Shown here in pieces: positions 28,480 through 63,343 of a stretch of DNA of 64,000 bases. The stretch is from Haliotis asinina (lineage: Eukaryota; Mollusca; Gastropoda; Lepetellida; Haliotidae), in the NCBI RefSeq assembly GCF_037392515.1, contig NC_090288.1, positions 14,613,969-14,677,968 of the forward strand. The letters run 5' to 3'. The translations under genes were made by a program, and so were the position numbers. How positions within the stretch are numbered: position 1 is the first letter of the stretch; every line of letters starts with the position of its first letter. Under the pieces are notes generated by a model that made no database searches, had not been told where the DNA came from, and saw only the letters and a list, made by a program, of their open reading frames with translations.

Positions 28480-28597
28480 GATATGAAAATCTGGTCATAA
28501 CGACTTGTTACATTCCGCACTGATTCTCCGTGTATATGTTTAGCCAGAATGCCCCGATTTACTATCTGTCCTAAGGAAATACCATTGATAAATGGCC
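28480..28597 (+). repeat. Decayed fragment of the 4.25-kb unit at the array edge
   Basis: It matches, with about one change every several bases, the unit stretch at 28852-28965 (blocks GTGTATAT.TTTAGCCAGA, GATTTACTATCTGTCCTA). It lies immediately before the first good unit sequence, so the array boundary is nested in older unit DNA. Confidence 0.6.
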
Positions 28598-29033
28598 AAC
28601 AAGAGGTGTCTCCCTTCAGTAAGTGGTCGGCAAGAAGCTGGATGAGGCACCGGTGCATTCATTCCTCTCACTTACAAATGAGCTAAAATTTAATGAACCT
28701 TGTGGCTGAATCAGTTGGTTTACACGTTTACTTTGTACACGGTATAACTGACAATTTACCGATACGACTACATCGTATCGCCACTTATATCCCCGCTCAC
28801 CCAACTGCAAAGTCGGGATCCCTGGCTTTTAATTGTCAGCCAATGTGTCTGAAAATCTTGTCGTAATGACTTGTTGTTACATTCGGCTCTGGTTGTCCGT
28901 GTATATATTTAGCCAGAGTACCCTGATTTACTATCTGTCCTAGAGATATTACATTGCTCAGTGGGAACGTACAAAGCAACAGAGAATATTTAAGGTTTCT
29001 CTTTGTTTTGAAGTTTTCTTTCTTTGATTTCAG

Positions 29034-30399
29034 ATGGAAGACGGTAAGCCCGTTTCCTTGGCAACATGTTTATTAAACCAGTGCATGTATATCATGCTAT
29101 ACGTCTAAATATAAAGCAAAGATTACACATTCACCTCCGGTATTTACATGATGGGTCAGTGGGGTAACTTGGTGGTTAAAGCACAGACTAAGTTACCGAA
29201 GTCTCAGTTTCTATTTCTTTCATGCTTGAAACACGTGATCCCACCAGGGTGTTCCTCCAACCCTAGCCGCCCGGATAAAGTTGGGTTAACACTTCAGGCA
29301 GCGTAAAACCATACTCACTCACTCACCCACACACTCATCATTTGGGACGCATACGCAAGGGGAAATGACGATTTTCGTCTCTAAACATTCAAAGGGTGAC
29401 TGGGCCGGGTTAACTGGTATTCCGTCTACGTTGATTAATATTTAAAATACCATCCTAACCTTTTCTGTTTTCTCAAATTGTACATGTGTCTGAATATTAA
29501 TGAGTGCCTTAACTGCCCCAGCACCACTCAAGTCGCTTATTTCTCCGTGTCGGTCTGGACTGAAAGTAACAACCAGACGAACAGCACTGTCCTGATGTCG
29601 GTATCAGACAATATAGAAATGTCCAAAGACACTTCGTTGCGTAAAAAAACACTCAAAAGGGGGGGTGGGGGTGGCGGGGGAAGGGAGACCACTCTCAGAT
29701 CGCTTGTGCTGTGACCTATAGTGAGCGAAGTAATCGTAAAATAACCAGCGGCCCGGTATCAGCTTGTACCATGGCCACCCATGTGTATACACTTCGAATT
29801 TTCCATTGCAGATTCAGATTGTCAAGATTGCGCCTGAAGACAGCAACACAGCTAAAGGACGCCGGTGATTCCATAACCCACACTTAAGTATCAGTAAAAC
29901 GCTAATTAACCAGTTGGTCTGGATGTTTATTTTGTACCTGGTAGATCTGAGGCATCTACGCCAGCATATTCGACCCAGCTAGAACGTTCCTCGCTTTGCT
30001 CGTTTTCCATTGCACATTCAGATTATGAAGGATGGACTTGAAGACAACAACACAGCGGTTGAGGACAAATATCCCTGAACAAGTTCATTTGTTAACTAGT
30101 TTGCCCTGTATTACATTTTCAAGATAGCTCGATGCCAGAGTCTGTTCAGCTGCCTCTACTGCTGTGTTGCTGTCACCTATTCGTTGAAAAATACACTAAA
30201 GGAAGAACAACAGACTCGGGTGTGTACCATTCACTGACATTTATTCAGGTTACACCAAGAAATGAAATGGTATGTACCAAAGAAAGCATCAAAATCGGGG
30301 CCGGAAATGAAGCGCAGTCAAGAGAGGAATAAAGAAATGTCAGCCAAAGGGTATGCCAAAACATTGAATAATAGGTCGAAAGGGTGTGTCCACAAATAG
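29034..30399 (+). pseudogene. Gene A, copy 1: 5'-truncated
   Basis: Exons 2 (29034-29043), 3 (29812-29864) and 4 (30249-30399) are present with intact splice signals, but the array starts at 28598 inside intron 1, so exon 1 with the start codon is missing. Exon 4 has one change specific to this copy, Lys72 to Glu (numbering of the full protein). It is probably not expressed as the full protein. Confidence 0.5.
29140..29335 (+). repeat. SINE-like segment inside the unit
   Basis: A degenerate tRNA-like head (GGGGTAACTTGGTGGTTAAAG) region is followed by a body with CCCGGATAAAGTTGGGTTAA and a CACTCACTCAC tail. It lies in intron 2 of gene A and recurs in every unit, for example at 35412 and 39637. 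The insertion therefore preceded amplification of the array. Confidence 0.55.
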
Positions 30400-30866
30400 G
30401 CCGAAATATGTAGTCAGATCAGTCCAAAGTGGAAAAGGCACCACAAAACATCCTACCACACAAACACACTCAATCACGTGCTCGAAAACGTCAGTCACAC
30501 ATGCAAACCACAACTCTCACACATCCACCCATACTTACACGCCAAACGCTCTCACACATTCAGATACACCCTCACACATTCACACATGCAAAACACATCG
30601 TCTTCACAGACATTCAAACAAGCATTTCTCTCTCTATCTCTCTCGCTGTCTCTCTCTCACACACACCACATAAAACACATCTCTCTACCATGCACCAATT
30701 CACAAACGCAAACGCACCTGACACAAACATCCCGTTATGCTTATTACAACCTCTAATACATACACGCACTCAAACTTTCAAACAAAACACACCCTCGCAC
30801 ACATATATATGTATACACTTTAACCTGTATGCGCACACACGCACGCACGCACACTGGATGAGCAAT

Positions 30867-31486
30867 CTAAGAGAACATTCTCCTAAAGAAGGCAGCCACT
30901 CTCCTCAGCGCCTTCCTCACAGGATGAACCTCTATGTCCTCCACGAAACTGTCCTCGTCCTCGTCTTCATAGACCCAGTAGTCACTGTCGTCGTCACTAG
31001 GGGCAGGATAGTGGTCGACGTAGGTGATGGTGACTGGGGCGGGGAGCGTCTCACCGTGGTCAGGGCGGGCCCAGAATGGGGTGAAAACACTCAGGGGGTC
31101 ATGAGAAGGGGTCGGGGAAGCTGCCTGTGGACGCTACATCGGTCAGTGGGGAGGGAGGGAGGGAGAAAGGAGGGGCATTTAAAGGAGTTACAGGAGGTGT
31201 TAGAGTTGAATAAGGCAAAAGGAAGTCATAGTCCCAGATTACACATGAACAATAATTTTTATGTTTACATGAGAGAGGGGTGTGTGGGGGCTATTTCTGG
31301 ACATTATAACAGACTGGAAAAAGTGTCCAGTGCAGTAGCACGTGTAAGAGATCACTGGCTCATGGACAAAAGCAAACTATTCCACCGAATAGGAAACAGA
31401 TGTAGATGGGATGTACATACACAGTCGGACTCCTCATCCAGCGACGGCCATAGACTAGCAGCAGGAGTCACATGATACCGGATCAT
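30867..31486 (-). CDS. Gene B, copy 1: small spliced gene, 107 aa, acidic centre and cationic end
   Basis: Coding exons 31421-31486 (start ATG at 31486) and 30867-31124 are joined in phase 0 by a strong TGT|GTATGT donor and a CCACAG acceptor preceded by an ACTGAC branch-like site and a pyrimidine tract. The exon with the ATG is itself bounded upstream by an acceptor (TTATTTTCAG at 31498), so a further 5' exon is likely and the true start may lie upstream. The protein has a Pro/aromatic first half, then SDDDSDYWVYEDEDEDSF (very acidic), then an amphipathic cationic C-terminus (VRKALRRVAAFFRRMFS). Acidic-then-cationic order is seen in antimicrobial peptide precursors but also in nuclear proteins; no signal peptide is visible. 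Copy 1 has a silent change in Ala23. The 2-kb tRNA-monomer insertion separates this copy from the putative promoter. Confidence 0.55.
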
Positions 31487-31851
31487 GTCTTCCCGTGCTG
31501 AAAATAATCCAAACAGCACATTCAAATACACAGTAACTACATATGCAACAAAACCTTTAGCATGTTCAAAACATAGCAAGATATTCGTTCTTCCAGATAG
31601 GTGCATTGCACAAATTAGGACTGCGGACCAAAAGATCTACAGTCTCTTCTGATCATCAGATAATCAAGAGTTTTAAAAGGTCTAATATACAGAAAATAAA
31701 TCACAGATTACTTTACATTATCCCCCACCATATGTAGACACGGAAAGTTCACACTTCAAGAGCAGAAAGGCTGTATGAAGATACAACATATGTCATATTT
31801 GGGATCTCACTTTCTTAGTAAAGTACAAATTCTAGTACTTTTTTCGGTTGA

Positions 31852-32241
31852 GTCCCATCCGGGATTCGAACCCGCACCCTCAGAGTCAGGCACCTAATCG
31901 CCAGCACACAAAGTCAGCCGCCTAGCCCGCTCAGCCACCGCGACTTCCACGAAAATGAAAGTCGGACAACTGGTAGTCTAGACTGCGTACTTTGTGTACC
32001 CCTCTGATGAGTGTAAATTGGCACGGCTCCCACGGCCGAAAGCTATGATTACACGATGCCATTTAGAAAGTGGTCAAATGCAACATATGTCATATTTGGG
32101 ATCTCACTTTCTTAGTAAAGTACAAATTCTAGTACTTTTTTCGGTTGAGTCCCATCCGGGATTCGAACCCGCACCCTCAGAGTCAGGCACCTAATCGCCA
32201 GCACACAAAGTCAGCCGCCTAGCCCGCTCAGCCACCGCGAC
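31852..32241 (-). pseudogene. Two tRNA-like heads, inverted orientation
   Basis: Heads at 31852-31944 and 32149-32241, again 297 bp apart, with intact boxes on the minus strand. They face the five direct heads across the junction near 32257, where AAAATGAAAGT runs into GAGATCCCAAA. Confidence 0.65.
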
Positions 32242-32420
32242 TTCCACGAAAATGAAAGTGAGATCCCAAATATGACATATGTTGCATTTGACCACTTTCT
32301 AAATGGCATCGTGTAATCATAGCTTTCGGCCGTGGGAGCCGTGCCAATTTACACTCATCAGAGGGGTACACAAAGTACGCAGTCTAGACTACCAGTTGTC
32401 CGACTTTCATTTTCGTGGAA

Positions 32421-33701
32421 GTCGCGGTGGCTGAGCGGGCTAGGCGGCTGACTTTGTGTGCTGGCGATTAGGTGCCTGACTCTGAGGGTGCGGGATCGAA
32501 TCCCGGATGGGACTCAACCGAAAAAAGTACTAGAATTTGTACTTTACTAAGAAAGTGAGATCCCAAATATGACATATGTTGCATTTGACCACTTTCTAAA
32601 TGGCATCGTGTAATCATAGCTTTCGGCCGTGGGAGCCGTGCCAATTTACACTCATCAGAGGGGTACACAAAGTACGCAGTCTAGACTACCAGTTGTCCGA
32701 CTTTCATTTTCGTGGAAGTCGCGGTGGCTGAGCGGGCTAGGCGGCTGACTTTGTGTGCTGGCGATTAGGTGCCTGACTCTGAGGGTGCGGGTTCGAATCC
32801 CGGATGGGACTCAACCGAAAAAAGTACTAGAATTTGTACTTTACTAAGAAAGTGAGATCCCAAATATGACATATGTTGCATTTGACCACTTTCTAAATGG
32901 CATCGTGTAATCATAGCTTTCGGCCGAGGGAGCCGTGCCAATTTACACTCATCAGAGGGGTACACAAAGTACGCAGTCTAGACTACCAGTTGTCCGACTT
33001 TCATTTTCGTGGAAGTCGCGGTGGCTGAGCGGGCTAGGCGGCTGACTTTGTGTGCTGGCGATTAGGTGCCTGACTCTGAGGGTGCGGGTTCGAATCCCGG
33101 ATGGGACTCAACCGAAAAAAGTACTAGAATTTGTACTTTACTAAGAAAGTGAGATCCCAAATATGACATATGTTGCATTTGACCACTTTCTAAATGGCAT
33201 CGTGTAATCATAGCTTTCGGCCGTGGGAGCCGTGCCAATTTACACTCATCAGAGGGGTACACAAAGTACGCAGTCTAGACTACCAGTTGTCCGACTTTCA
33301 TTTTCGTGGAAGTCGCGGTGGCTGAGCGGGCTAGGCGGCTGACTTTGTGTGCTGGCGATTAGGTGCCTGACTCTGAGGGTGCGGGTTCGAATCCCGGATG
33401 GGACTCAACCGAAAAAAGTACTAGAATTTGTACTTTACTAAGAAAGTGAGATCCCAAATATGACATATGTTGCATTTGACCACTTTCTAAATGGCATCGT
33501 GTAATCATAGCTTTCGGCCGTGGGAGCCGTGCCAATTTACACTCATCAGAGGGGTACACAAAGTACGCAGTCTAGACTACCAGTTGTCCGACTTTCATTT
33601 TCGTGGAAGTCGCGGTGGCTGAGCGGGCTAGGCGGCTGACTTTGTGTGCTGGCGATTAGGTGCCTGACTCTGAGGGTGCGGGTTCGAATCCCGGATGGGA
33701 C
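32421..33701 (+). pseudogene. Five tRNA-like heads, direct orientation (class II, Leu/Ser-like)
   Basis: Heads at 32421-32513, 32718-32810, 33015-33107, 33312-33404 and 33609-33701, each 93 nt, exactly 297 bp apart. Their length and a long variable region resemble tRNA-Leu or tRNA-Ser. The acceptor stem pairs at only about five of seven positions and the anticodon stem is poor, so these are tRNA-derived sequences and not functional tRNAs. The first head has GGGATCGAATCC in its B box; the other four have the perfect GGGTTCGAATCC. All could still recruit pol III. Confidence 0.65.
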
Positions 33702-33834
33702 TCAACCGAAAAAAGTACTAGAATTTGTACTTTACTAAGAAAGTGAGATCCCAAATATGACATATGTTGCATTTGACCACTTTCTAAATGGCATCGTGTA
33801 ATCATGTATGAAGATAGTCATTCATGAATTTTAG

Positions 33835-33920
33835 TAAAAATTGCAAATGGCGGCCTTGTACAAATGTCATCACTACCGATACTGCTGTTACTCTGCGGCC
33901 GATTCCAGTATAAATCTACG
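33835..33920. promoter_or_regulatory. Candidate promoter region of the unit (shared 5' side of genes A and B)
   Basis: A TATAAAT box at 33909-33915 lies 139 bp before the gene A ATG, and an AAATGGCGGCC (YY1-like) motif stands at about 33846. Gene B of the preceding unit is transcribed away to the left, so the region could serve both directions. The same sequences are conserved in the following units (for example 38069-38140). No transcription start data are available. Confidence 0.35.
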
Positions 33921-34053
33921 TCTTTCACATGTTAAAATACAATAGTGTCTTCTTAAATACCTTGAATATGCAGCCTTGTAAACATCTTGTCGGTAGAAGA
34001 TCTTGAAACGATGCCGTAGTCAACGAAATGCAGAGCGATAGCGAGTAAGAGCA

Positions 34054-36663
34054 ATGGCGGTTCTGTTAAAAACAGATGGGACGGTGGTAACAGCAACGGT
34101 AACTAGTGTAGAGACGAGGTCAGAACGAGGCGTCATTGTCCATTTCCGGTAAGGACAATCAGCCGGCTGTAGTTGCATGACATGTGGCCAAAGGCTTGGC
34201 GATTTTTAGGTCTCCGGCCATTGCCAATATATTCAAACGTCGGATATGCTAATTAACCACCAAATCGGGCTCATGGGCTGACAAAAATACAACACTCACC
34301 CGCTAAAGTAATGCTAGCGCAAAATAAAAACAAACTTTGGGCATTCCTTTTCAATCAAAAGTATTTCAGATTCCCTTTTCTTACCTATTTCGTATCTGGT
34401 TATCCTAGACACACAGGTCGCTGTATAAACTCCGGCAGCGAAGGTTAAGATTGGCAGACCATTATTATCATCCCGCGCATGGTTGCGAATGCATCAAAGT
34501 ATATTGTGTCATTTGGGGAATTAAGACCATGAACAACAGGGAAAGAAAGACATAGCTGTCGAGCCAAAAGCAGAGTTCTTTTAGAAAAGGAAACAGATCC
34601 CGGTGTGTGGGCTGTCGTCATGGTTTCCGTCGGTGATAAAAAGAAGGGCAGACCGAGTGCATTTTGACCTCGAGTATTAACTTGTTAACTACTGAATACA
34701 TTTAATTGCCGGCCAAGACACTTCGCCTCAGCCGGAAAATGTCTGCTGGTGTGTGGCTGATGCACATTAAAGTTTGCCGTGACTGCTGCACTCATGACTG
34801 TCGTGGAAGGACAAGCGTGAAGATTCCTCGAACTCCGCGCTTGAAACTGGCGCTAATAAGACGACAAGAGTGGTCTCCCTTCAGTAAGTGGTCGGCAAGA
34901 AGCTGGATGAGGCACCGGTGCATTCAATCCTCTCACTTACAAATGAGCTAAAATTTAATGAACCTTGTGGCTGAATCAGTTGGTTTACACGTTTACTTTG
35001 TGCACGGTATAACTGACAATTTCCCGATAGGACTACATCGTATCACCACTTATATCCCCGCTCACCCAACTGCAAAGTCGGGATCCCTGGCTTTTAATTG
35101 TCAGCCAATGTGTCTGAAAATCTTGTCGTAATGACTTGTTGTTACATTCGGCTCTGGTTGTCCGTGTATATATTTAGCCAGAGTACCCTGATTTACTATC
35201 TGTCCTAGAGATATTACATTGCTCAGTGGGAACGTACAAAGCAACAGAGAATATTTAAGGTTTCTCTTTGTTTTGAAGTTTTCTTTCTTTGATTTCAGAT
35301 GGAAGACGGTAAGCCCGTTTCCTTGGCAACATGTTTATTAAACCAGTGCATGTATATCATGCTATACGTCTAAATATAAAGCAAAGATTACACATTCACC
35401 TCCGGTATTTACATGATGGGTCAGTGGGGTAACTTGGTGGTTAAAGCACAGACTAAGTTACCGAAGTCTCAGTTTCTATTTCTTTCATGCTTGAAACACG
35501 TGATCCCACCAGGGTGTTCCTCCAACCCTAGCCGCCCGGATAAAGTTGGGTTAACACTTCAGGCAGCGTAAAACCATACTCACTCACTCACCCACACACT
35601 CATCATTTGGGACGCATACGCAAGGGGAAATGACGATTTTCGTCTCTAAACATTCAAAGGGTGACTGGGCCGGGTTAACTGGTATTCCGTCTACGTTGAT
35701 TAATATTTGAAATACCATCCTAACCTTTTCTGTTTTCTCAAATTGTACATGTGTCTGAATATTAATGAGTGCCTTAACTGCCCCAGCACCACTCAAGTCG
35801 CTTATTTCTCCGTGTCGGTCTGGACTGAAAGTAACAACCAGACGAACAGCACTGTCCTGATGTCGGTATCAGACAATATAGAAATGTCCAAAGACACTTC
35901 GTTGCGTAAAAAAACACTCAAAAGGGGGGTGGGGGTGGCGGGGGAAGGGAGACCACTCTCAGATCGCTTGTGCTGTGACCTATAGTGAGCGAAGTAATCG
36001 TAAAATAACCAGCGGCCCGGTATCAGCTTGTACCATGGCCACCCATGTGTATACACTTCGAATTTTCCATTGCAGATTCAGATTGTCAAGATTGCGCCTG
36101 AAGACAGCAACACAGCTAAAGGACGCCGGTGATTCCATAACCCACACTTAAGTATCAGTAAAACGCTAATTAACCAGTTGGTCTGGATGTTTATTTTGTA
36201 CCTGGTAGATCTGAGGCATCTACGCCAGCATATTCGACCCAGCTAGAACGTTCCTCGCTTTGCTCGTTTTCCATTGCACATTCAGATTATGAAGGATGGA
36301 CTTGAAGACAACAACACAGCGGTTGAGGACAAATATCCCTGAACAAGTTCATTTGTTAACTAGTTTGCCCTGTATTACATTTTCAAGATAGCTCGATGCC
36401 AGAGTCTGTTCAGCTGCCTCTACTGCTGTGTTGCTGTCACCTATTCGTTGAAAAATACACTAAAGGAAGAACAACAGACTCGTGTGTGTACCATTCACTG
36501 ACATTTATTCAGGTTACACCAAGAAATGAAATGGTATGTACCAAAGAAAGCATCAAAATCGGGGCCGAAAATGAAGCGCAGTCAAGAGAGGAATAAAGAA
36601 ATGTCAGCCAAAGGGTATGCCAAAACATTGAATAATAGGTCGAAAGGGTGTGTCCACAAATAG
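34054..36663 (+). CDS. Gene A, copy 2: small spliced gene, 102 aa, basic tail
   Basis: Exons 34054-34148, 35299-35308, 36076-36128 and 36513-36663 all have GT-AG borders. Their total of 309 nt closes to 102 codons plus TAG. Exon 1 starts at an ATG in a fair context (gcaATGG), preceded by a TATA-like TATAAAT at 33909, and predicts beta-strand-like segments (KTDGTVVTATVTSV, then GVIVHF). Exon 2 is a 10-nt microexon (ATGGAAGACG) adding Trp-Lys-Thr. Exon 3 reads IQIVKIAPEDSNTAKG. Exon 4 is rich in Lys/Arg (PKKASKSGPKMKRSQERNK). There is no signal peptide or membrane segment. The spacing of K-x-DG...A-x-VTS recalls the N-terminal domain of kinesin-13 (KIF2) proteins, from memory and weakly. Function unknown. 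An alternative is that these are fortuitous ORF pieces; phase closure and conservation of the open frame across copies argue against it. Confidence 0.55.
36280..36342 (+). pseudogene. Decayed duplicate of gene A exon 3 (present in every unit)
   Basis: About 200 bp after exon 3, a second block repeats its frame (IQIMKDGLEDNNTAVED against IQIVKIAPEDSNTAKG) and the preceding TTTTCCATTGCA tract. The acceptor AG has become AC and the frame ends in TGA after 20 codons. It would be skipped by splicing. Equivalent blocks lie at the same offset in the other units. It supports the exon 3 reading frame as a real ancestral coding segment. Confidence 0.5.
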
Positions 36664-36719
36664 GCCGAAATGTGTAGTCAGATCAGTCCAAAGTGGAAAA
36701 GGCACCACAAAACATCCTA

Positions 36720-36945
36720 CCACACAAACACACTCAATCACGTGCTCGAAAACGTCAGTCACACATGCAAACCACAACTCTCACACATCCACCCATACTT
36801 ACACGCCAAACGCTCTCACACATTCAGATACACCCTCACACATTCACACATGCAAAACACATCGTCTTCACAGACATTCAAACAAGCATTTCTCTCTCTA
36901 TCTCTCTCGCTGTCTCTCTCTCACACACACCACATAAAACACATC
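36720..36945 (+). repeat. CA/CT-rich simple sequence in the unit
   Basis: ACAC-, TCTCTC- and CACACA-rich stretch in the 3' flank between the converging genes A and B, followed at about 37096-37122 by a (GCAC)n tract of variable length. It produces long spurious His/Thr/Ser-rich frames on the plus strand. The equivalent blocks in other units vary in repeat number. Confidence 0.75.
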
Positions 36946-37136
36946 TCTCTACCATGCACCAATTCACAAACGCAAACGCACCTGACACAAAGATCCCGTT
37001 ATGCTTATTACAACCTCTAATACATACACGCACTCAAACTTTCAAACAAACCACACCCTCGCACACATATATATGTATACACTTTAACCTGTATGCACAC
37101 ACGCACACACGCACGCACGCACACTGGATGAGCAAT

Positions 37137-37756
37137 CTAAGAGAACATTCTCCTGAAGAAGGCAGCCACTCTCCTCAGCGCCTTCCTCACAGGATGAACC
37201 TCTATGTCCTCCACGAAACTGTCCTCGTCCTCGTCTTCATAGACCCAGTAGTCACTGTCGTCGTCACTAGGGGCAGGATAGTGGTCGACGTAGGTGATGG
37301 TGACTGGGGCGGGGAGCGTCTCACCGTGGTCAGGGCGGGCCCAGAATGGGGTGAAAACACTCAGGGGGTCATGAGAAGGGGTCGGGGAAGCAGCCTGTGG
37401 ACGCTACATCGGTCAGTGGGGAGGGAGGGAGGGAGAAAGGAGGGGCATTTAAAGGAGTTACAGGAGGTGTTAGAGTTGAATAAGGCAAAAGGAAGTCATA
37501 GTCCCAGATTACACATGAACAATAATTTTAATGTGTACATGAGAGAGGGGTGTGTGGGGGCTATTTCTGGACATTATAACAGACTGGAAAAAGTGTCCAG
37601 TGCAGTAGCACGTGTAAGAGATCACTGGCTCATGGACAAAAGCAAACTATTCCACCGAATAGGAAACAGATGTAGATGGGATGTACATACACAGTCGGAC
37701 TCCTCATCCAGCGACGGCCATAGACTAGCAGCAGGAGTCACATGATACCGGATCAT
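37137..37756 (-). CDS. Gene B, copy 2
   Basis: Coding exons 37691-37756 and 37137-37394. It has a silent Phe102 change (TTT to TTC); otherwise the reference protein. The intron contains the (GGGA) microsatellite in its short form. Confidence 0.55.
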
Positions 37757-38278
37757 GTCTTCCCGTGCTGAAAATAATCCAAACAGCACATTCAAATACA
37801 CAGTAACTACATATGCAACAAAACCTTTAGCATGTTCAAAACATAGCAAGATATTCGTTCTTCCAGCTAAGCGCATTGCACAAATTAGGACTGCGGACCA
37901 ATAGATCTGATCATCAGATTGTCAAGAGTTTTAAAAGGTCTAATATACAGAAAATAAATCACAGATTACTTTACATTATCCCCCACCATATGTAGACACG
38001 GAAAGTACACACTTCAAGAGCAGAAAGGCTGTATGAAGATAGTCATTCATGAATTTTAGTAAAAATTGCAAATGGCGGCCTTGTACAAATGTCATCACTA
38101 CCGATACTGCTGTTACTCTGCGGCCGATTCCAGTATAAATCTACGTCTTTCACATGTTAAAATACAATAGTGTCTTCTTAAATACCTTGAATATGCAGCC
38201 TTGTAAACATCTTGTCGGTAGAAGATCTTGAAACGATGCCGTAGTCAACGAAATGCAGAGCGATAGCGAGTAAGAGCA

Positions 38279-40888: not shown

Positions 40889-41370
40889 GCCGAAATATGT
40901 AGTCAGATCAGTTCAAAGTGGAAAAGGCACCACAAAACATCCTACCACACAAACACACTCAATCACGTGCTCGAAAACGTCAGTCACACATGCAAACCAC
41001 AACTCTCACACATCCACCCATACTTACACGCCAAACGCTCTCACACATTCAGATACACCCTCACACATTCACACATGCAAAACACATCGTCTTCACAGAC
41101 ATTCAAACAAGCATTTCTCTCTCTATCTCTCTCGCTGTCTCTCTCTCACACACACCACATAAAAACACATCTCTCTACCATGCACCAATTCACAAACGCA
41201 AACGCACCTGACACAAACATCCCGTTATGCTTATTACAACCTTTAATACATACACGCACTCAAACTTTCAAACAAAACACACCCTCGCACACATATATAT
41301 GTATACACTTTAACCTGTATGCACACACGCACACACGCACGCACGCACGCACGCACACTGGATGAGCAAT

Positions 41371-41990
41371 CTAAGAGAACATTCTCCTAAAGAAGGCAGC
41401 CACTCTCCTCAGCGCCTTCCTCACAGGATGAACCTCTATGTCCTCCACGAAACTGTCCTCGTCCTCGTCTTCACAGACCCAGTAGTCACTGTCGTCGTCA
41501 CTAGGGGCAGGATAGTGGTCGACGTAGGTGATGGTGACTGGGGCGGGGAGCGTCTCACCGTGGTCAGGGCGGGCCCAGAATGGGGTGAAAACACTCAGGG
41601 GGTCATGAGAAGGGGTCGGGGAAGCAGCCTGTGGACGCTACATCGGTCAGTGGGGAGGGAGGGAGGGAGAAAGGAGGGGCATTTAAAGGAGTTACAGGAG
41701 GTGTTAGAGTTGAATAAGGCAAAAGGAAGTCATAGTCCCAGATTACACATGAACAATAATTTTAATGTGTACATGAGAGAGGGGTGTGTGGGGGCTATTT
41801 CTGGACATTATAACAGACTGGAAAAAGTGTCCAGTGCAGTAGCACGTGTAAGAGATCACTGGCTCATGGACAAAAGCAAACTATTCCACCGAATAGGAAA
41901 CAGATGTAGATGGGATGTACATACACAGTCGGACTCCTCATCCAGCGACGGCCATAGACTAGCAGCAGGAGTCACATGATACCGGATCAT
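41371..41990 (-). CDS. Gene B, copy 3
   Basis: Coding exons 41925-41990 and 41371-41628. One replacement, Tyr74 to Cys, just before the acidic run. Splice signals unchanged. Confidence 0.55.
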
Positions 41991-42527
41991 GTCTTCCCGT
42001 GCTGAAAATAATCCAAACAGCACATTCAAATACACAGTAACTACGGGATATGCAACAAAACCTTTAGCATGTTCAAAACATAGCAAGATATTCGTTCTTC
42101 CAGATAGGTGCATTGCACAAATTAGGACTGCGGACCAAAAGATCTACAGTCTCTTCTGATCATCAGATAATCAAGAGTTTTAAAAGGTCTAATATACAGA
42201 AAATAAATCACAGATTACTTTACATTATCCCCCACCATATGTAGACACGGAAAGTACACACTTCAAGAGCAGAAAGGCTGTATGAAGATAGTCATTCATG
42301 AATTTTAGTAAAAATTGCAAATGGCGGCCTTGTACAAATGTCATCACTACCGATACTGCTGTTACTCTGCGGCCGATTCCAGTATAAATCTACGTCTTTC
42401 ACATGTTAAAATACAATAGTGTCTTCTTAAATACCTTGAATATGCAGCCTTGTAAACATCTTGTCGGTAGAAGATCTTGAAACGATGCCGTAGTCAACGA
42501 AATGCAGAGCGATAGCGAGTAAGAGCA

Positions 42528-45612: not shown

Positions 45613-46232
45613 CTAAGAGAACATTCTCCTAAAGAAGGCAGCCACTCTCCTCAGCGCCTTCCTCACAGGATGAACCTCTATGTCCTCCACGAAACTGTCC
45701 TCGTCCTCGTCTTCATAGACCCAGTAGTCACTGTCGTCGTCACTAGGGGCAGGATAGTGGTCGACGTAGGTGATGGTGACTGGGGCGGGGAGCGTCTCAC
45801 CGTGGTCAGGGCGGGCCCAGAATGGGGTGAAAACACTCAGGGGGTCATGAGAAGGGGTCGGGGAAGCAGCCTGTGGACGCTACATCGGTCAGTGGGGAGG
45901 GAGGGAGGGAGAAAGGAGGGGCATTTAAAGGAGTTACAGGAGGTGTTAGAGTTGAATAAGGCAAAAGGAAGTCATAGTCCCAGATTACACATGAACAATA
46001 ATTTTAATGTGTACATGAGAGAGGGGTGTGTGGGGGCTATTTCTGGACATTATAACAGACTGGAAAAAGTGTCCAGTGCAGTAGCACGTGTAAGAGATCA
46101 CTGGCTCATGGACAAAAGCAAACTATTCCACCGAATAGGAAACAGATGTAGATGGGATGTACATACACAGTCGGACTCCTCATCCAGCGACGGCCATAGA
46201 CTAGCAGCAGGAGTCACATGATACCGGATCAT
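45613..46232 (-). CDS. Gene B, copy 4
   Basis: Coding exons 46167-46232 and 45613-45870. No coding change noticed relative to the consensus protein. Confidence 0.55.
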
Positions 46233-46766
46233 GTCTTCCCGTGCTGAAAATAATCCAAACAGCACATTCAAATACACAGTAACTACATATGCAACAAAAC
46301 CTTTAGCATGTTCAAAACATAGCAAGATATTCGTTCTTCCAGATAGGTGCATTGCACAAATTAGGACTGCGGACCAAAAGATCTACAGTCTCTTCTGATC
46401 ATCAGATAATCAAGAGTTTTAAAAGGTCTAATATACAGAAAATAAATCACAGATTACTTTACATTATCCCCCACCATATGTAGACACGGAAAGTACACAC
46501 TTCAAGAGCAGAAAGGCTGTATGAAGATAGTCATTCATGAATTTTAGTAAAAATTGCAAATGGCGGCCTTGTACAAATGTCATCACTACCGATACTGCTG
46601 TTACTCTGCGGCCGATTCCAGTATAAATCTACGTCTTTCACACGTTAAAATACAATAGTGTCTTCTTAAATACCTTGAATATGCAGCCTTGTAAACATCT
46701 TGTCGGTAGAAGATCTTGAAACGATGCCGTAGTCAACGAAATGCAGAGCGATAGCGAGTAAGAGCA

Positions 46767-49376: not shown

Positions 49377-49823
49377 GCCGAAATATGTAGTCAGATCAGT
49401 CCAAAGTGGAAAAGGCACCACAAAACATCCTACCACACAAACACACTCAATCACGTGCTCGAAAACGTCAGTCACACATGCAAACCACAACTCTCACACA
49501 TCCACCCATACTTACACGCCAAACGCTCTCACACATTCAGATACACCCTCACACATTCACACATGCAAAACACATCGTCTTCACAGACATTCAAACAAGC
49601 ATTTCTCTCTCTATCTCTCTCGCTGTCTCTCTCTCACACACACCACATAAAAACACATCTCTCTACCATGCACCAATTCACAAACGCAAACGCACCTGAC
49701 ACAAACATCCCGTTATGCTTATTACAACCTCTAATACATAAACGCACTCAAACTTTCAAACAAAACACACCCTCGCACACATATATATGTATACACTTTA
49801 ACCTGTATGCACACACGCACACA

Positions 49824-49859
<36 letters not shown>

Positions 49860-49874
49860 CACTGGATGAGCAAT

Positions 49875-50502
49875 CTAAGAGAACATTCTCCTAAAGAAGG
49901 CAGCCACTCTCCTCAGCGCCTTCCTCACAGGATGAACCTCTATGTCCTCCACGAAACTGTCCTCGTCCTCGTCTTCATAGACCCAGTAGTCACTGTCGTC
50001 GTCACTAGGGGCAGGATAGTGGTCGACGTAGGTGATGGTGACTGGGGCGGGGAGCGTCTCACCGTGGTCAGGGCGGGCCCAGAATGGGGTGAAAACACTC
50101 CGGGGATCATGAGAAGGGGTCGGGGAAGCAGCCTGTGGACGCTACATCGGTCAGTGGGGAGGGAGGGAGGGAGGGAGGGAGAAAGGAGGGGCATTTAAAG
50201 GAGTTACAGGAGGTGTTAGAGTTGAATAAGGCAAAAGGAAGTCATAGTCCCAGATTACACATGAACAATAATTTTAATGTGTACATGAGAGAGGGGTGTG
50301 TGGGGGCTATTTCTGGACATTATAACAGACTGGAAAAAGTGTCCAGTGCAGTAGCACGTGTAAGAGATCACTGGCTCATGGACAAAAGCAAACTATTCCA
50401 CCGAATAGGAAACAGATGTAGATGGGATGTACATACACAGTCGGACTCCTCATCCAGCGACGGCCATAGACTAGCAGCAGGAGTCACATGATACCGGATC
50501 AT
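49875..50502 (-). CDS. Gene B, copy 5
   Basis: Coding exons 50437-50502 and 49875-50132. Leu33 to Arg plus a silent Asp31 change, both shared with copy 6. The intron GGGA run is lengthened as in copies 6-8, marking the subfamily switch inside this unit. Confidence 0.55.
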
Positions 50503-51036
50503 GTCTTCCCGTGCTGAAAATAATCCAAACAGCACATTCAAATACACAGTAACTACAAATGCAACAAAACCTTTAGCATGTTCAAAACATAGCAAGATAT
50601 TCGTTCTTCCAGATAGGTGCATTGCACAAATTAGGACTGCGGACCAAAAGATCTACAGTCTCTTCTGATCATCAGATAATCAAGAGTTTTAAAATGTCTA
50701 ATATACAGAAAATAAATCACAGATTACTTTACATTATCCCCCACCATATGTAGACACGGAAAGTACACACTTCAAGAGCAGAAAGGCTATATGAAGATAG
50801 TCATTCATGAATTTTAGTAAAAATTGCAAATGGCGGCCTTGTACAAATGTCATCACTACCGATACTGCTGTTACTCTGCGGCCGATTCCAGTATAAATCT
50901 ACGTCTTTCACATGTTAAAATACAATAGTGTCTTCTTAAATACCTTGAATATGCAGCCTTGTAAACATCTTGTCGGTAGAAGATCTTGAAACGATGCCGT
51001 AGTCAACGAAATGCAGAGCGATAGCGAGTAAGAGCA

Positions 51037-53649: not shown

Positions 53650-54088
53650 GCCGAAATATGTAGTCAGATCAGTTCAAAGTGGAAAAGGCACCACAAAACA
53701 TCCTACCACACAAACACACTCAATCACGTGCTCGAAAACGTCAGTCACACATGCAAACCACAACTCTCACACATCCACCCATACTTACACGCCAAACGCT
53801 CTCACACATTCAGATACACCCTCACACATTCACACATGCAAAACACATCGTCTTCACAGACATTCAAACAAGCATTTCTCTCTCTATCTCTCTCGCTGTC
53901 TCTCTCTCACACACACCACATAAAAACACATCTCTCTACCATGCACCAATTCACAAACGCAAACGCACCTGACACAAACATCCCGTTATGCTTATTACAA
54001 CCTTTAATACATACACGCACTCAAACTTTCAAACAAAACACACCCTCGCACACATATATATGTATACACTTTAACCTGTATGCACACA

Positions 54089-54124
<36 letters not shown>

Positions 54125-54139
54125 CACTGGATGAGCAAT

Positions 54140-54767
54140 CTAAGAGAACATTCTCCTAAAGAAGGCAGCCACTCTCCTCAGCGCCTTCCTCACAGGATGA
54201 ACCTCTATGTCCTCCACGAAACTGTCCTCGTCCTCGTCTTCATAGACCCAGTAGTCACTGTCGTCGTCACTAGGGGCAGGATAGTGGTCGACGTAGGTGA
54301 TGGTGACTGGGGCGGGGAGCGTCTCACCGTGGTCAGGGCGGGCCCAGAATGGGGTGAAAACACTCCGGGGATCATGAGAAGGGGTCGGGGAAGCAGCCTG
54401 TGGACGCTACATCGGTCAGTGGGGAGGGAGGGAGGGAGGGAGGGAGAAAGGAGGGGCATTTAAAGGAGTTACAGGAGGTGTTAGAGTTGAATAAGGCAAA
54501 AGGAAGTCATAGTCCCAGATTACACATGAACAATAATTTTAATGTGTACATGAGAGAGGGGTGTGTGGGGGCTATTTCTGGACATTATAACAGACTGGAA
54601 AAAGTGTCCAGTGCAGTAGCACGTGTAAGAGATCACTGGCTCATGGACAAAAGCAAACTATTCCACCGAATAGGAAACAGATGTAGATGGGATGTACATA
54701 CACAGTCGGACTCCTCATCCAGCGACGGCCATAGACTAGCAGCAGGAGTCACATGATACCGGATCAT
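54140..54767 (-). CDS. Gene B, copy 6
   Basis: Coding exons 54702-54767 and 54140-54397. Arg33 and silent Asp31 as in copy 5. Confidence 0.55.
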
Positions 54768-55301
54768 GTCTTCCCGTGCTGAAAATAATCCAAACAGCAC
54801 ATTCAAATACACAGTAACTACAAATGCAACAAAACCTTTAGCATGTTCAAAACATAGCAAGATATTCGTTCTTCCAGATAGGTGCATTGCACAAATTAGG
54901 ACTGCGGACCAAAAGATCTACAGTCTCTTCTGATCATCAGATAATCAAGAGTTTTAAAATGTCTAATATACAGAAAATAAATCACAGATTACTTTACATT
55001 ATCCCCCACCATATGTAGACACGGAAAGTACACACTTCAAGAGCAGAAAGGCTATATGAAGATAGTCATTCATGAATTTTAGTAAAAATTGCAAATGGCG
55101 GCCTTGTACAAATGTCATCACTACCGATACTGCTGTTACTCTGCGGCCGATTCCAGTATAAATCTACGTCTTTCACATGTTAAAATACAATAGTGTCTTC
55201 TTAAATACCTTGAATATGCAGCCTTGTAAACATCTTGTCGGTAGAAGATCTTGAAACGATGCCGTAGTCAACGAAATGCAGAGCGATAGCGAGTAAGAGC
55301 A

Positions 55302-57914
55302 ATGGCGGTTCTGTTAAAAACAGAGGGGACGTTGGTAACAGCAACGGTAACTAGAGTAGAGACGAGGTCAGAACGAGGCGTCATTGTCCATTTCCGGTAA
55401 GGACAATCAGCCGGCTGTAGTTGCATGACATGTGGCCAAAGGCTTGGCGATTTTTAGGTCTCCGGCCATTGCCAATATATTCAAACGTCGGATATGCTAA
55501 TTAACCACCAACTCGGGCTCATGGGCTGACAAAAATACAACACTCACCCGCTAAAGTAATGCTAGCGCAAAATAAAAACAAACTTTGGGCATTCCTTTTC
55601 AATCAAAAGTATTTCAGATTCCCTTTTCTTACCTATTTCGTATCTGGTTATCCTAGACACACAGGTCGCTGTATAAACTCCGGCAGCGAAGGTTAAGATT
55701 GGCAGACCATTATTATCATCCCGCGCATGGTTGCGAATGCATCAAAGTATATTGTGTCATTTGGGGAATTAAGACCATGAACAACAGGGAAAGAAAGACA
55801 TAACTGTCGAGCCAAAAGCAGAGTTCTTTTAGAAAAGGAAACAGATCCCGGTGTGTGGGCTGTCGTCATGGTTTCCGTCGGTGATAAAAAGAAGGGCAGG
55901 CTGAGTGCATTTTGACCTCGAGTATTAACTTGTTAACTACTGAATATATTTAATTGCCGGCCAAGACACTTCGCCTCAGCCGGAAAATGTCTGCTGGTGT
56001 GTGGCTGATGCACATTAAAGTCTGCCGTGACTGCTGCACTCATGACTGTCGTGGAAGGACAAGCGTGAAGATTCCTCGAACTCCGCGCTTGTAACTGGCG
56101 CTAATAAGACGACAAGAGTGGTCTCCCTTCAGTAATTGGTCGGGAAGAAGCTGGATGAGGCACCGGTGCATTCATTCCTCTCACTTACAAATGAGCTAAA
56201 ATTTAATGAACCTTGTGGCTGAATCAGTTGGTTTACACGTTTACTTTGTGCACGGTATAACTGACAATTTCCCGATAGGACTACATCGTATCGCCACTTA
56301 TATCCCCGCTCACCCAACTGCAAAGTCGGGATCCCTGGCTTTTAATTGTCAGCCAATGTGTCTGAAAATCTTGTCGTAATGACTTGTTGTTACATTCGGC
56401 TCTGGTTGTCCGTGTATGTATTTAGCCAGAGTACCCTGATTTACTATCTGTCCTAGAGATATTACATTGCTCAGTGGGAACGTACAAAGCAACAGAGAAT
56501 ATTTAAGGTTTCTCTTTGTTTTGAAGTTTTCTTTCTTTGATTTCAGATGGAAGACGGTAAGCCTGTTTCCTTGGCAACATGTTTATTAAACCAGTGCATG
56601 TATATCATGCTATACGTCTAAATATAAAGCAAAGATTACACATTCACCTCCGGTATTGACATGATGGGTCAGTGGGGTAACTTGGTGGTTAAAGAACAGA
56701 CTAAGTTACCGAAGTCTCAGTTTCTATTTCTTTCATGCTTGAAACACGTGATCCCACCAGGGTGTTCCTCCAACCCTAGCCGCCCGGGTAAAGTTGGGTT
56801 AACACTTCAGGCAGCGTAAAACCATACTCACTCACTCACCCACACACTCATCATTTGGGACGCATACGCAAGGGGAAATGACGATTTTCGTCTCTAAACA
56901 TTCAAAGGGTGACTGGGCCGGGTTAACTGGTATTCCGTCTACGTTGATTAATATTTGAAATACCATCCTAACCTTTTCTGTTTTCTCAAATTGTACATGT
57001 GTCTGAATATTAATGAGTGCCTTAACTGCCCCAGCATCACTCAAGTCGCTTATTTCTCCGTGTCGGTCTGGACTGAAAGTAACAACCAGACGAACAGTAC
57101 TGTCCTGATGTCGGTATCAGACAATATAGAAATGTCCAAAGACACTTCGTTGCGTAAAGAAAAAACACTCGAAAGGGGGGTGGGGGTGGCGGGGGAAGGG
57201 AGACCACTCTCAGATCGCTTGTGCTGTGACCTATAGTGAGCGAAGTAATCGTAAAATAACCAGCGGCCCGGTATCAGCTTGTACCATGGCCACCCATGTG
57301 TATACACTTCGAATTTTCCATTGCAGATTCAGATTGTCAAGATTGCGCCTGAAGACAGCAACACAGCTAAAGGACGCCGGTGATTGCATAACCCACACTT
57401 AAGTATCAGTAAAACGCTAATTAACCAGTTGGTCTGGATGTTTATTTTGTACCTGGTAGATCTGAGGCATCTACGCCAGCATATTCGACCCAGCTAGAAC
57501 GTTCCTCGCTTTGCTCGTTTTCCATTGCACATTCAGATTATGAAGGATGGACTTGAAGACAACAACACAGCGGTTGAGGACAAATATCCCTGAACAAGTT
57601 CATTTGTTAACTAGTTTGCCCTGTATTACATTTTCAAGATAGCTCGATGCCAGAGTCTGTTCAGCTGCCTCTACTGCTGTGTTGCTGTCACCTATTCGTT
57701 GAAAAATACACTAAAGGAAGAACAACAGACTCGTGTGTGTACCATTCACTGACATTTATTCAGGTTACACCAAGAAATGAAATGGTATGTACCAAAGAAA
57801 GCATCAAAATCGGGGCCGAAAATGAAGCGCAGTCAAGAGAGGAATAAAGAAATGTCAGCCAAAGGGTATGCCAAAACATTAAATAATAGGTCGAAAGGGT
57901 GTGTCCACAAATAG
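55302..57914 (+). CDS. Gene A, copy 7
   Basis: Exons 55302-55396, 56547-56556, 57327-57379 and 57764-57914. Same predicted protein as copy 6 (Arg18). The whole unit is nearly indistinguishable from copy 6, pointing to a very recent duplication. Confidence 0.55.
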
Positions 57915-58361
57915 GCCGAAATATGTAGTCAGATCAGTTCAAAGTGGAAAAGGCACCACAAAACATCCTACCACACAAACACACTCAATCACGTGCTCGA
58001 AAACGTCAGTCACACATGCAAACCACAACTCTCACACATCCACCCATACTTACACGCCAAACGCTCTCACACATTCAGATACACCCTCACACATTCACAC
58101 ATGCAAAACACATCGTCTTCACAGACATTCAAACAAGCATTTCTCTCTCTATCTCTCTCGCTGTCTCTCTCTCACACACACCACATAAAAACACATCTCT
58201 CTACCATGCACCAATTCACAAACGCAAACGCACCTGACACAAACATCCCGTTATGCTTATTACAACCTTTAATACATACACGCACTCAAACTTTCAAACA
58301 AAACACACCCTCGCACACATATATATGTATACACTTTAACCTGTATGCACACACGCACACA

Positions 58362-58393
<32 letters not shown>

Positions 58394-58408
58394 CACTGGA
58401 TGAGCAAT

Positions 58409-59036
58409 CTAAGAGAACATTCTCCTAAAGAAGGCAGCCACTCTCCTCAGCGCCTTCCTCACAGGATGAACCTCTATGTCCTCCACGAAACTGTCCTCGT
58501 CCTCGTCTTCATAGACCCAGTAGTCACTGTCGTCGTCACTAGGGGCAGGATAGTGGTCGACGTAGGTGATGGTGACTGGGGCGGGGAGCGTCTCACCGTG
58601 GTCAGGGCGGGCCCAGAATGGGGTGAAAACACTCCGGGGGTCATGAGAAGGGGTCGGGGAAGCAGCCTGTGGACGCTACATCGGTCAGTGGGGAGGGAGG
58701 GAGGGAGGGAGGGAGAAAGGAGGGGCATTTAAAGGAGTTACAGGAGGTGTTAGAGTTGAATAAGGCAAAAGGAAGTCATAGTCCCAGATTACACATGAAC
58801 AATAATTTTAATGTGTACATGAGAGAGGGGTGTGTGGGGGCTATTTCTGGACATTATAACAGACTGGAAAAAGTGTCCAGTGCAGTAGCACGTGTAAGAG
58901 ATCACTGGCTCATGGACAAAAGCAAACTATTCCACCGAATAGGAAACAGATGTAGATGGGATGTACATACACAGTCGGACTCCTCATCCAGCGACGGCCA
59001 TAGACTAGCAGCAGGAGTCACATGATACCGGATCAT
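58409..59036 (-). CDS. Gene B, copy 7
   Basis: Coding exons 58971-59036 and 58409-58666. Arg33 but with the ordinary Asp31 codon, so intermediate between copies 6 and 8. Confidence 0.55.
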
Positions 59037-59570
59037 GTCTTCCCGTGCTGAAAATAATCCAAACAGCACATTCAAATACACAGTAACTACAAATGCAACA
59101 AAACCTTTAGCATGTTCAAAACATAGCAAGATATTCGTTCTTCCAGATAGGTGCATTGCACAAATTAGGACTGCGGACCAAAAGATCTACAGTCTCTTCT
59201 GATCATCAGATAATCAAGAGTTTTAAAAGGTCTAATATACAGAAAATAAATCACAGATTACTTTACATTATCCCCCACCATATGTAGACACGGAAAGTAC
59301 ACACTTCAAGAGCAGAAAGGCTATATGAAGATAGTCATTCATGAATTTTAGTAAAAATTGCAAATGGCGGCCTTGTACAAATGTCATCACTACCGATACT
59401 GCTGTTACTCTGCGGCCGATTCCAGTATAAATCTACGTCTTTCACATGTTAAAATACAATAGTGTCTTCTTAAATACCTTGAATATGCAGCCTTGTAAAC
59501 ATCTTGTCGGTAGAAGATCTTGAAACGATGCCGTAGTCAACGAAATGCAGAGCGATAGCGAGTAAGAGCA

Positions 59571-62183
59571 ATGGCGGTTCTGTTAAAAACAGAGGGGACG
59601 TTGGTAACAGCAACGGTAACTAGAGTAGAGACGAGGTCAGAACGAGGCGTCATTGTCCATTTCCGGTAAGGACAATCAGCCGGCTGTAGTTGCATGACAT
59701 GTGGCCAAAGGCTTGGCGATTTTTAGGTCTCCGGCCATTGCCAATATATTCAAACGTCGGATATGCTAATTAACCACCAACTCGGGCTCATGGGCTGACA
59801 AAAATACAACACTCACCCGCTAAAGTAATGCTAGCGCAAAATAAAAACAAACTTTGGGCATTCCTTTTCAATCAAAAGTATTTCAGATTCCCTTTTCTTA
59901 CCTATTTCGTATCTGGTTATCCTAGACACACAGGTCGCTGTATAAACTCCGGCAGCGAAGGTTAAGATTGGCAGACCATTATTATCATCCCGCGCATGGT
60001 TGCGAATGCATCAAAGTATATTGTGTCATTTGGGGAATTAAGACCATGAACAACAGGGAAAGAAAGACATAACTGTCGAGCCAAAAGCAGAGTTCTTTTA
60101 GAAAAGGAAACAGATCCCGGTGTGTGGGCTGTCGTCATGGTTTCCGTCGGTGATAAAAAGAAGGGCAGGCTGAGTGCATTTTGACCTCGAGTATTAACTT
60201 GTTAACTACTGAATATATTTAATTGCCGGCCAAGACACTTCGCCTCAGCCGGAAAATGTCTGCTGGTGTGTGGCTGATGCACATTAAAGTCTGCCGTGAC
60301 TGCTGCACTCATGACTGTCGTGGAAGGACAAGCGTGAAGATTCCTCGAACTCCGCGCTTGTAACTGGCGCTAATAAGACGACAAGAGTGGTCTCCCTTCA
60401 GTAATTGGTCGGGAAGAAGCTGGATGAGGCACCGGTGCATTCATTCCTCTCACTTACAAATGAGCTAAAATTTAATGAACCTTGTGGCTGAATCAGTTGG
60501 TTTACACGTTTACTTTGTGCACGGTATAACTGACAATTTCCCGATAGGACTACATCGTATCGCCACTTATATCCCCGCTCACCCAACTGCAAAGTCGGGA
60601 TCCCTGGCTTTTAATTGTCAGCCAATGTGTCTGAAAATCTTGTCGTAATGACTTGTTGTTACATTCGGCTCTGGTTGTCCGTGTATGTATTTAGCCAGAG
60701 TACCCTGATTTACTATCTGTCCTAGAGATATTACATTGCTCAGTGGGAACGTACAAAGCAACAGAGAATATTTAAGGTTTCTCTTTGTTTTGAAGTTTTC
60801 TTTCTTTGATTTCAGATGGAAGACGGTAAGCCTGTTTCCTTGGCAACATGTTTATTAAACCAGTGCATGTATATCATGCTATACGTCTAAATATAAAGCA
60901 AAGATTACACATTCACCTCCGGTATTGACATGATGGGTCAGTGGGGTAACTTGGTGGTTAAAGAACAGACTAAGTTACCGAAGTCTCAGTTTCTATTTCT
61001 TTCATGCTTGAAACACGTGATCCCACCAGGGTGTTCCTCCAACCCTAGCCGCCCGGGTAAAGTTGGGTTAACACTTCAGGCAGCGTAAAACCATACTCAC
61101 TCACTCACCCACACACTCATCATTTGGGACGCATACGCATGGGGAAATGACGATTTTCGTCTCTAAACATTCAAAGGGTGACTGGGCCGGGTTAACTGGT
61201 ATTCCGTCTACGTTGATTAATATTTGAAATACCATCCTAACCTTTTCTGTTTTCTCAAATTGTACATGTGTCTGAATATTAATGAGTGCCTTAACTGCCC
61301 CAGCATCACTCAAGTCGCTTATTTCTCCGTGTCGGTCTGGACTGAAAGTAACAACCAGACGAACAGTACTGTCCTGATGTCGGTATCAGACAATATAGAA
61401 ATGTCCAAAGACACTTCGTTGCGTAAAGAAAAAACACTCGAAAGGGGGGTGGGGGTGGCGGGGGAAGGGAGACCACTCTCAGATCGCTTGTGCTGTGACC
61501 TATAGTGAGCGAAGTAATCGTAAAATAACCAGCGGCCCGGTATCAGCTTGTACCATGGCCACCCATGTGTATACACTTCGAATTTTCCATTGCAGATTCA
61601 GATTGTCAAGATTGCGCCTGAAGACAGCAACACAGCTAAAGGACGCCGGTGATTCCATAACCCACACTTAAGTATCAGTAAAACGCTAATTAACCAGTTG
61701 GTCTGGATGTTTATTTTGTACTTGGTAGATCTGAGGCATCTACGCCAGCATATTCGACCCAGCTAGAACGTTCCTCGCTTTGCTCGTTTTCCATTGCACA
61801 TTCAGATTATGAAGGATGGACTTGAAGACAACAACACAGCGGTTGAGGACAAATATCCCTGAACAAGTTCATTTGTTAACTAGTTTGCCCTGTATTACAT
61901 TTTCAAGATAGCTCGATGCCAGAGTCTGTTCAGCTGCCTCTACTGCTGTGTTGCTGTCACCTATTCGTTGAAAAATACACTAAAGGAAGAACAACAGACT
62001 CGTGTGTGTACCATTCACTGACATTTATTCAGGTTACACCAAGAAATGAAATGGTATGTACCAAAGAAAGCATCAAAATCGGGGCCGAAAATGAAGCGCA
62101 GTCAAGAGAGGAATAAAGAAATGTCAGCCAAAGGGTATGCCAAAACATTAAATAATAGGTCGAAAGGGTGTGTCCACAAATAG
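59571..62183 (+). CDS. Gene A, copy 8
   Basis: Exons 59571-59665, 60816-60825, 61596-61648 and 62033-62183. Predicted protein as copies 6 and 7. This is the last complete gene A before the array ends. Confidence 0.55.
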
Positions 62184-62675
62184 GCCGAAATATGTAGTCA
62201 GATCAGTTCAAAGTGGAAAAGGCACCACAAAACATCCTACCACACAAACACACTCAATCACGTGCTCGAAAAGGTCAGTCACACATGCAAACCACAACTC
62301 TCACACATCCACCCATACTTACACGCCAAACGCTCTCACACATTCAGATACACCCTCACACATTCACACATGCAAAACACATCGTCTTCACAGACATTCA
62401 AACAAGCATTTCTCTCTCTATCTCTCTCGCTGTCTCTCTCTCACACACACCACATAAAAACACATCTCTCTACCATGCACCAATTCACAAACGCAAACGC
62501 ACCTGACACAAACATCCCGTTATGCTTATTACAACCTTTAATACATACACGCACTCTTCAACTTTCAAACAAAACACACCCTCGCACACATATATATGTA
62601 TACACTTTAACCTGTATGCACACACGCACACACGCACGCACGCACGCACGCACGCACGCACACTGGATGAGCAAT

Positions 62676-63303
62676 CTAAGAGAACATTCTCCTAAAGAAG
62701 GCAGCCACTCTCCTCAGCGCCTTCCTCACAGGATGAACCTCTATGTCCTCCACGAAACTGTCCTCGTCCTCGTCTTCATAGACCCAGTAGTCACTGTCGT
62801 CGTCACTAGGGGCAGGATAGTGGTCGACGTAGGTGATGGTGACTGGGGCGGGGAGCGTCTCACCGTGGTCAGGGCGGGCCCAGAATGGGGTGAAAACACT
62901 CAGGGGGTCATGAGAAGGGGTCGGGGAAGCAGCCTGTGGACGCTACATCGGTCAGTGGGGAGGGAGGGAGGGAGGGAGGGAGAAAGGAGGGGCATTTAAA
63001 GGAGTTACAGGAGGTGTTAGAGTTGAATAAGGCAAAAGGAAGTTATAGTCCCAGATTACACATGAACAATAATTTTAATGTGTACATGAGAGAGGGGTGT
63101 GTGGGGGCTATTTCTGGACATTATAACGGACTGGAAAAAGTGTCCAGTGCAGTAGCACGTGTAAGAGATCACTGGCTCATGGACAAAAGCAAACTATTCC
63201 ACCGAATAGGAAACAGATGTAGATGGGATGTACATACACAGTCGGACTCCTCATCCAGCGACGGCCATAGACTAGCAGCAGGAGTGACATGATACCGGAT
63301 CAT
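62676..63303 (-). CDS. Gene B, copy 8 (upstream region lost)
   Basis: Coding exons 63238-63303 and 62676-62933. Leu33 as in copies 1-4 and a silent Val6 change. Its TTTTC-type acceptor tract upstream is still present, with one substitution, but about 40 bp beyond the exon the unit is replaced by the gag-like element, so any 5' exon and the promoter are missing. It may be unexpressed. Confidence 0.45.
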
Positions 63304-63343
63304 GTCTTCCCGTGCCGAAAATAATCCAAACAGCACATTTAAA

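Follow-up and report, generated by a model that had tools for sequence, protein, structure and literature searches.

A tandem array of near-identical units in the abalone (Haliotis) genome raised the question of what a single unit encodes. An earlier note, made from raw sequence, proposed two unknown small spliced genes per unit in convergent orientation, one on each strand. We analysed the window, the whole 64-kb stretch of DNA, and reached a different count. With a probability of about 70%, the unit would be a tandemly amplified single-gene cassette in abalone, the product of which may carry a masked basic tail. Of the two proposed genes, the minus-strand one alone had support.

Self-BLAST and unit alignment, with the 4225-bp unit at 33805-38029 as the query for the copy search, yielded the following array:

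28599 to 63344, no strand assigned: tandem array of eight head-to-tail units, the first and last incomplete (from self-BLAST, unit alignment and periods).

The periods were 4225, 4249, 4239, 4270, 4265 and 4269 bp, and pairwise unit identity was 98.80-99.93% with gaps set aside. Six full units were located between a partial first unit (28599-31771, without unit bases 1-1059) and a partial last unit, which stopped at base 3993 of 4225. The eight-copy, head-to-tail array of about 4.25 kb that had been described at 28598-63343 was therefore correct to within one base, and the alignment of eight near-identical units also upheld the notion of a tandemly amplified cassette. An array of non-coding RNA genes was rejected, as an Rfam scan of the window returned zero families at the gathering score; a sub-threshold match to mir-297 in a GT-rich repeat (E 0.033; 29.3 bits, with the threshold at 90) was taken as chance.

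The minus-strand gene was found to have three coding exons of 25, 77 and 267 nt, for a coding sequence of 369 nt (122 aa plus stop). Its copies are listed below in array order:

30867 to 33985, minus strand: gene copy 1, exon 1 at 33961-33985, exon 2 at 31421-31497, exon 3 at 30867-31133.
37137 to 38210, minus strand: gene copy 2 (reference, 122 aa), exon 1 at 38186-38210, exon 2 at 37691-37767, exon 3 at 37137-37403.
41371 to 42459, minus strand: gene copy 3, exons at 42435-42459, 41925-42001 and 41371-41637.
45613 to 46698, minus strand: gene copy 4, exons at 46674-46698, 46167-46243 and 45613-45879.
49875 to 50968, minus strand: gene copy 5, exons at 50944-50968, 50437-50513 and 49875-50141.
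54140 to 55233, minus strand: gene copy 6, exons at 55209-55233, 54702-54778 and 54140-54406.
58409 to 59502, minus strand: gene copy 7, exons at 59478-59502, 58971-59047 and 58409-58675.
62676 to 63314, minus strand: gene copy 8, truncated, with exon 2 at 63238-63314 and exon 3 at 62676-62942 but no exon 1; the array ends at 63344.

The gene was complete in seven of the eight copies, with exons 2 and 3 open in all eight; copy 8 was without exon 1, the end of the array having cut the gene off. Both exon segments of the initial model thus existed and were open throughout, but that model omitted the first coding exon and placed an acceptor 9 nt too far downstream. The missing 5' exon, 0.4 kb upstream of the initial model, encodes the peptide MFTRLHIQ, which is the N-terminus of a predicted H. 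asinina protein, P0001. This peptide was coded exactly on the minus strand at 38210-38187 and at 33985-33962, followed each time by G|GTATTT. Exon 1 joined exon 2 at 37767 (TTTTCAG|CACGG), and the start of exon 3 was corrected to 37403 (GTAG|CGTCCACAG), 9 nt earlier than before. The corrected exon 2/3 junction read DC-RPQAASP, compared with DC-RPLASSP and DC-RSLAVSP in the two Haliotis relatives. On a generic metazoan splice matrix, the exon-2 donor (-1.16) and the exon-3 acceptor (-3.28) were weak sites. The acceptor first proposed, 9 nt downstream, scored 0.34, better than the corrected one, and may also be used.

The initial 107-aa product had two matches among 5.8 billion proteins, both from Haliotis: the H. 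asinina uncharacterized protein P0001 (120 aa; E 2.8e-53, 85% identity) and H. rufescens LOC125376035 isoform X1, P0002 (140 aa; E 2.5e-42, 71%). The corrected 122-aa product was 90% identical to P0001 and 72% identical to P0002, and its similarity to this uncharacterized Haliotis family extended over the full length. In a protein-level comparison, P0001 agreed in the exon-1 peptide and had like residues across both junctions; at that level, the lack of any gastropod homologue with such an exon structure, which the earlier note had named as a refuting condition, was not borne out. The note was right in taking the DNA to be from a mollusc and in its claim of an unknown small spliced minus-strand gene missed by open-reading-frame calling. 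From these comparisons, we consider the minus-strand gene to be real and its structure to be shown by identity to the predicted H. asinina and H. rufescens proteins. Because P0001 and P0002 are themselves predicted proteins, some of the agreement may stem from a shared prediction pipeline.

The gene is already in databases as uncharacterized predictions. The P0001 and P0002 clusters held 13 and 26 member sequences, on one contig each, which is suggestive of several copies in those species too, although isoforms and duplicate records may inflate these sizes. With a profile of the three sequences, 6945 candidates yielded nothing at E<=10 other than P0001 and P0002, and the 122-aa protein appears restricted to Haliotis among the proteins searched so far. 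No Pfam family, and no NCBIfam family at E<=1, was found for P0001 or P0002; the best Pfam match of the 107-aa model was sub-threshold (E 0.16, with 12.8 bits where the cut-off was 27.8). The best PDB match of the minus-strand product had an E value of 0.28, or 0.72 with the three-sequence profile. A viral relative was rejected, with none of 17 pattern matches in viral contigs confirmed. Literature titles and abstract openings mentioned nothing on this gene, which is not proof of absence.

Six codons of the minus-strand gene varied among the copies. Four of the changes were synonymous, where 25% would be expected (one-sided P 0.037); the sample is small (n=6), and one of its changes lies in copy 8, the truncated one. 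By columns, 6 of 370 in the exons varied (1.6%, in a count that took exon 2 one base too long), against 60 of 3602 (1.7%) outside all proposed exons. The unit contained 13 distinct indel intervals, many of them in simple repeats; none was located in the minus-strand exons, and none in the exons proposed for the plus strand either. The real evidence for this predicted gene is its conservation across species.

The equal variability of the exons and the rest of the unit is also what would be seen if the array were a satellite or mobile-element amplification in which the gene copies were passengers without dosage value. This explanation drew further on the left flank, where diverged collinear relatives of the unit were found at 72-83% identity: unit bases 488-1292 at 14330-15070, and unit bases 1302-1425 at 28473-28595. 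Given these relatives of unit bases 488-1425, a dispersed repeat may make up part of the unit; alternatively, the pieces may be a single old copy of the 5' flank into which 13.4 kb was later inserted. Other repeats also inserted nearby. Against passenger copies, the coding frame was intact in seven of eight copies, as expected of a gene amplified for dosage. The ends of the array fell inside the unit at different phases. Unit 2 has 16 stop-to-stop frames of 60 aa or more, none of which matched a Pfam family at E<=0.01. We consider a passenger origin unlikely, albeit the best placed of the alternatives, and retain the single-gene cassette as the preferred reading.

Several other features of the flanks were observed. 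The two left-flank relatives of the unit lie 13.4 kb apart, with an LTR element within the gap. This element, at 16170-26868, is a Ty3/gypsy-type LTR retroelement with 99.86% identical LTRs, TG...CA ends and CTCC on both sides, and its sequence marks it as a recent insertion. Four of its minus-strand frames, separate from one another and located at 20548-26009, gave matches to chromodomain, integrase, RNase H, RT, protease and gag, while three further frames at 17346-19094 matched no Pfam family. A plus-strand frame at 12398-12829 matched selenophosphate synthetase (selenide, water dikinase 1; E ~6e-32 to a solved chain); it is likely an exon of a host gene left of the array and could serve as a possible synteny anchor. 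Beside the array start, at 28202-28310, a 33-bp duplication was followed by an inverted copy in a palindrome-like arrangement. Directly right of the array end was a 184-codon open frame (63412-63963) with a sub-threshold Pfam match to RP-C (E 0.051). A diverged gene copy in the left flank was sought by tblastn with the window, asinina and rufescens proteins in both flanks and was rejected, as the only matches had E values of at least 0.35.

The array itself was interrupted by an insertion that the earlier note did not mention:

31784 to 33804, no strand assigned: 2021-bp insertion in intron 1 of gene copy 1, parting units 1 and 2 (from self-comparison, repeats and tRNA calls).

It was flanked by a 12-bp target duplication (TGTATGAAGATA at 31772 and 33805) and consisted of about five direct copies of a 297-bp tRNA-like repeat together with inverted ones; within the insertion, ARAGORN made seven tRNA-Thr calls. 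For a SINE-like element, the combination of 297-bp repeats, direct and inverted, with a 12-bp target duplication is unusual. Because exon 1 sits beyond the insertion, the first intron of copy 1 measures about 2.46 kb.

The 122-aa protein is acidic (-12), and its charge is unevenly distributed. In 20-aa windows, residues 81-100 had a net charge of -12 and the last 20 residues about +6. The same layout of -12 then +6 was found in H. asinina, and one of -11 then +5 in H. rufescens. The acidic tract reads DDDSDYWVYEDED and the basic tail RKALRRVAAFFRRMF. If helical, the last 17 residues would have a hydrophobic moment of 0.80 (window), 0.77 (asinina) and 0.65 (rufescens), values reached by 1.0%, 0.9% and 2.6%, respectively, of 5000 shuffles of each tail. 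A conserved acidic tract lies beside a basic tail, which as a helix would be amphipathic.

From this composition, we propose a mechanism of masking. The tail would form a helix, and the acidic tract DDDSDYWVYEDED would hold the basic tail RKALRRVAAFFRRMF until a membrane or partner is met, so that the protein could work as a masked membrane- or partner-binding peptide. Tandem copies would raise protein output, and unequal crossing-over or gene conversion would keep them alike. Dosage demand or germline expression, as the earlier note suggested, may be the role of the amplification.

The same charge layout, acidic then basic in all three proteins, is compatible with a precursor of a secreted, cationic, antimicrobial-type peptide, comprising an acidic pro-segment, a basic amphipathic C-terminus and an alternative hydrophobic N-terminus. 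A cationic, potentially amphipathic segment was present throughout (+6, +6 and +5; moment 0.65-0.80 assuming a helix). A source for the alternative N-terminus was found at the end of the first intron:

37768 to 37921, minus strand: last part of intron 1 in copy 2, sharing the exon-2 frame and open as far back as an in-frame Met in copies 1-7; possible alternative start.

Read-through in copies 1-7 was hydrophobic up to this Met, with VAYVVTVYLNVLFGLFSA before RED in copy 2. Between the Met and exon 2, the sole indel was one of 3 nt in copy 3, and a 12-nt indel lay upstream of the Met. In H. rufescens, isoform X1 (P0002) begins upstream in the same register, with FSA directly before RED (FSA|RED). 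An alternative start at the end of intron 1 is thus possible on these alignments. However, the H. rufescens leader was weakly hydrophobic (1.15 per residue over 15 aa, against 1.99 for the read-through form), and the main form of the window and H. asinina (MFTRLHIQ...) had no hydrophobic leader, its first 34 aa peaking at 0.30 per residue over 15 aa. On these Kyte-Doolittle values, the main form showed no signal-like leader. No convertase site before the tail was evident by eye, and the tail varies little, whereas many immune peptides vary more. A secreted precursor is consequently judged doubtful, slightly more so than passenger copies. A broader version, in which a gene born in abalone is tandem in several species and gives rise, by alternative first exons, to both an intracellular acidic protein and a secreted cationic peptide precursor, is improbable in our estimate. 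If true, the secreted product would represent a new family of cationic amphipathic peptides, for example in gamete or surface defence.

The single-gene reading leaves no place for the second gene of the unit, a 102-aa plus-strand protein besides the minus-strand gene, which had been proposed from a chain of four segments:

34054 to 36663, plus strand: four-segment chain at 34054-34148, 35299-35308, 36076-36128 and 36513-36663; judged to be chance, not a gene.

In all seven units holding its exon 1, the chain did close, at 309 nt and with GT-AG borders, and its exons were free of indels among the copies. Its splice sites were respectable on the generic matrix (donors 5.31, 4.99 and 2.05; acceptors 6.95, 4.18 and 3.12), all six outscoring the exon-2 donor and exon-3 acceptor of the supported gene. 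On reading the sequence, a second, diverged copy of part of its exon 3 also seemed to lie some 200 bp further downstream. Closure of this kind was not above chance, though: when chains of at most four exons were built with the same generic matrix, a chain of at least 309 nt with sites at least as good as the proposed gene's weakest arose in 27 of 60 dinucleotide-shuffled units. The real plus strand did reach 981 nt against a 60-shuffle maximum of 522, but this length belonged to a single low-complexity frame at 36765-37745, antisense to exon 3, and not to the four-segment chain; a frame of this description had been pointed out beforehand.

No relative of the plus-strand product was found at E<=1 among the 5.8 billion proteins, Haliotis predictions included, with one candidate sharing words; no Pfam family was found at E<=1, and the best PDB match had an E value of 0.49. 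For this gene, the single protein search thus showed the lack of homologues that formed one half of the earlier note's refuting condition. Its variable codons comprised one synonymous and three nonsynonymous changes, a neutral ratio. The putative start at 34054 is 69 bp from the minus-gene start of the preceding unit, and because that gene starts at 33985, the plus-strand exon 1 lies in the 5' flank of a real gene. The description of the two chains as convergent was correct within one unit, but did not take account of this overlap with the preceding gene's flank. The diverged relative of the unit at 14.3-15.1 kb starts at unit base 488 and is undetectable over exon 1. The plus-strand chain is therefore regarded as chance and the gene as described as non-existent, which makes two genes per unit the least probable explanation.

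For splicing chains assembled from raw sequence, this outcome indicates the need for a homology or shuffle check, as the chain with the better sites was the unsupported one. The locus offers a clear example of a small gene, restricted to one lineage, within a tandem array that is recent and near-identical; its predicted relatives are P0001 in H. asinina and P0002 in H. rufescens. The exact exon coordinates allow for testing why abalone keeps many copies of a protein found in no other organism searched.

Among known systems, the array resembles histone and rRNA-gene clusters in its near-identical kilobase units arranged head to tail, with copies presumably kept alike by concerted evolution. It differs from them in that its gene is unrelated to theirs and no Rfam family reached the gathering score in the window. 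The protein resembles the precursors of linear alpha-helical antimicrobial peptides in layout only, with a cationic, potentially amphipathic C-terminus after an acidic segment; unlike in that class, the main form is without a signal-like leader or a cleavage site visible by eye, and P0001 and P0002 are without a Pfam family. Neither of these two relatives bears a named function. P0002, the H. rufescens isoform X1, belongs to the same family and differs in its start, while P0001 of H. asinina shares with the array gene both the protein family and the exon-1 peptide.
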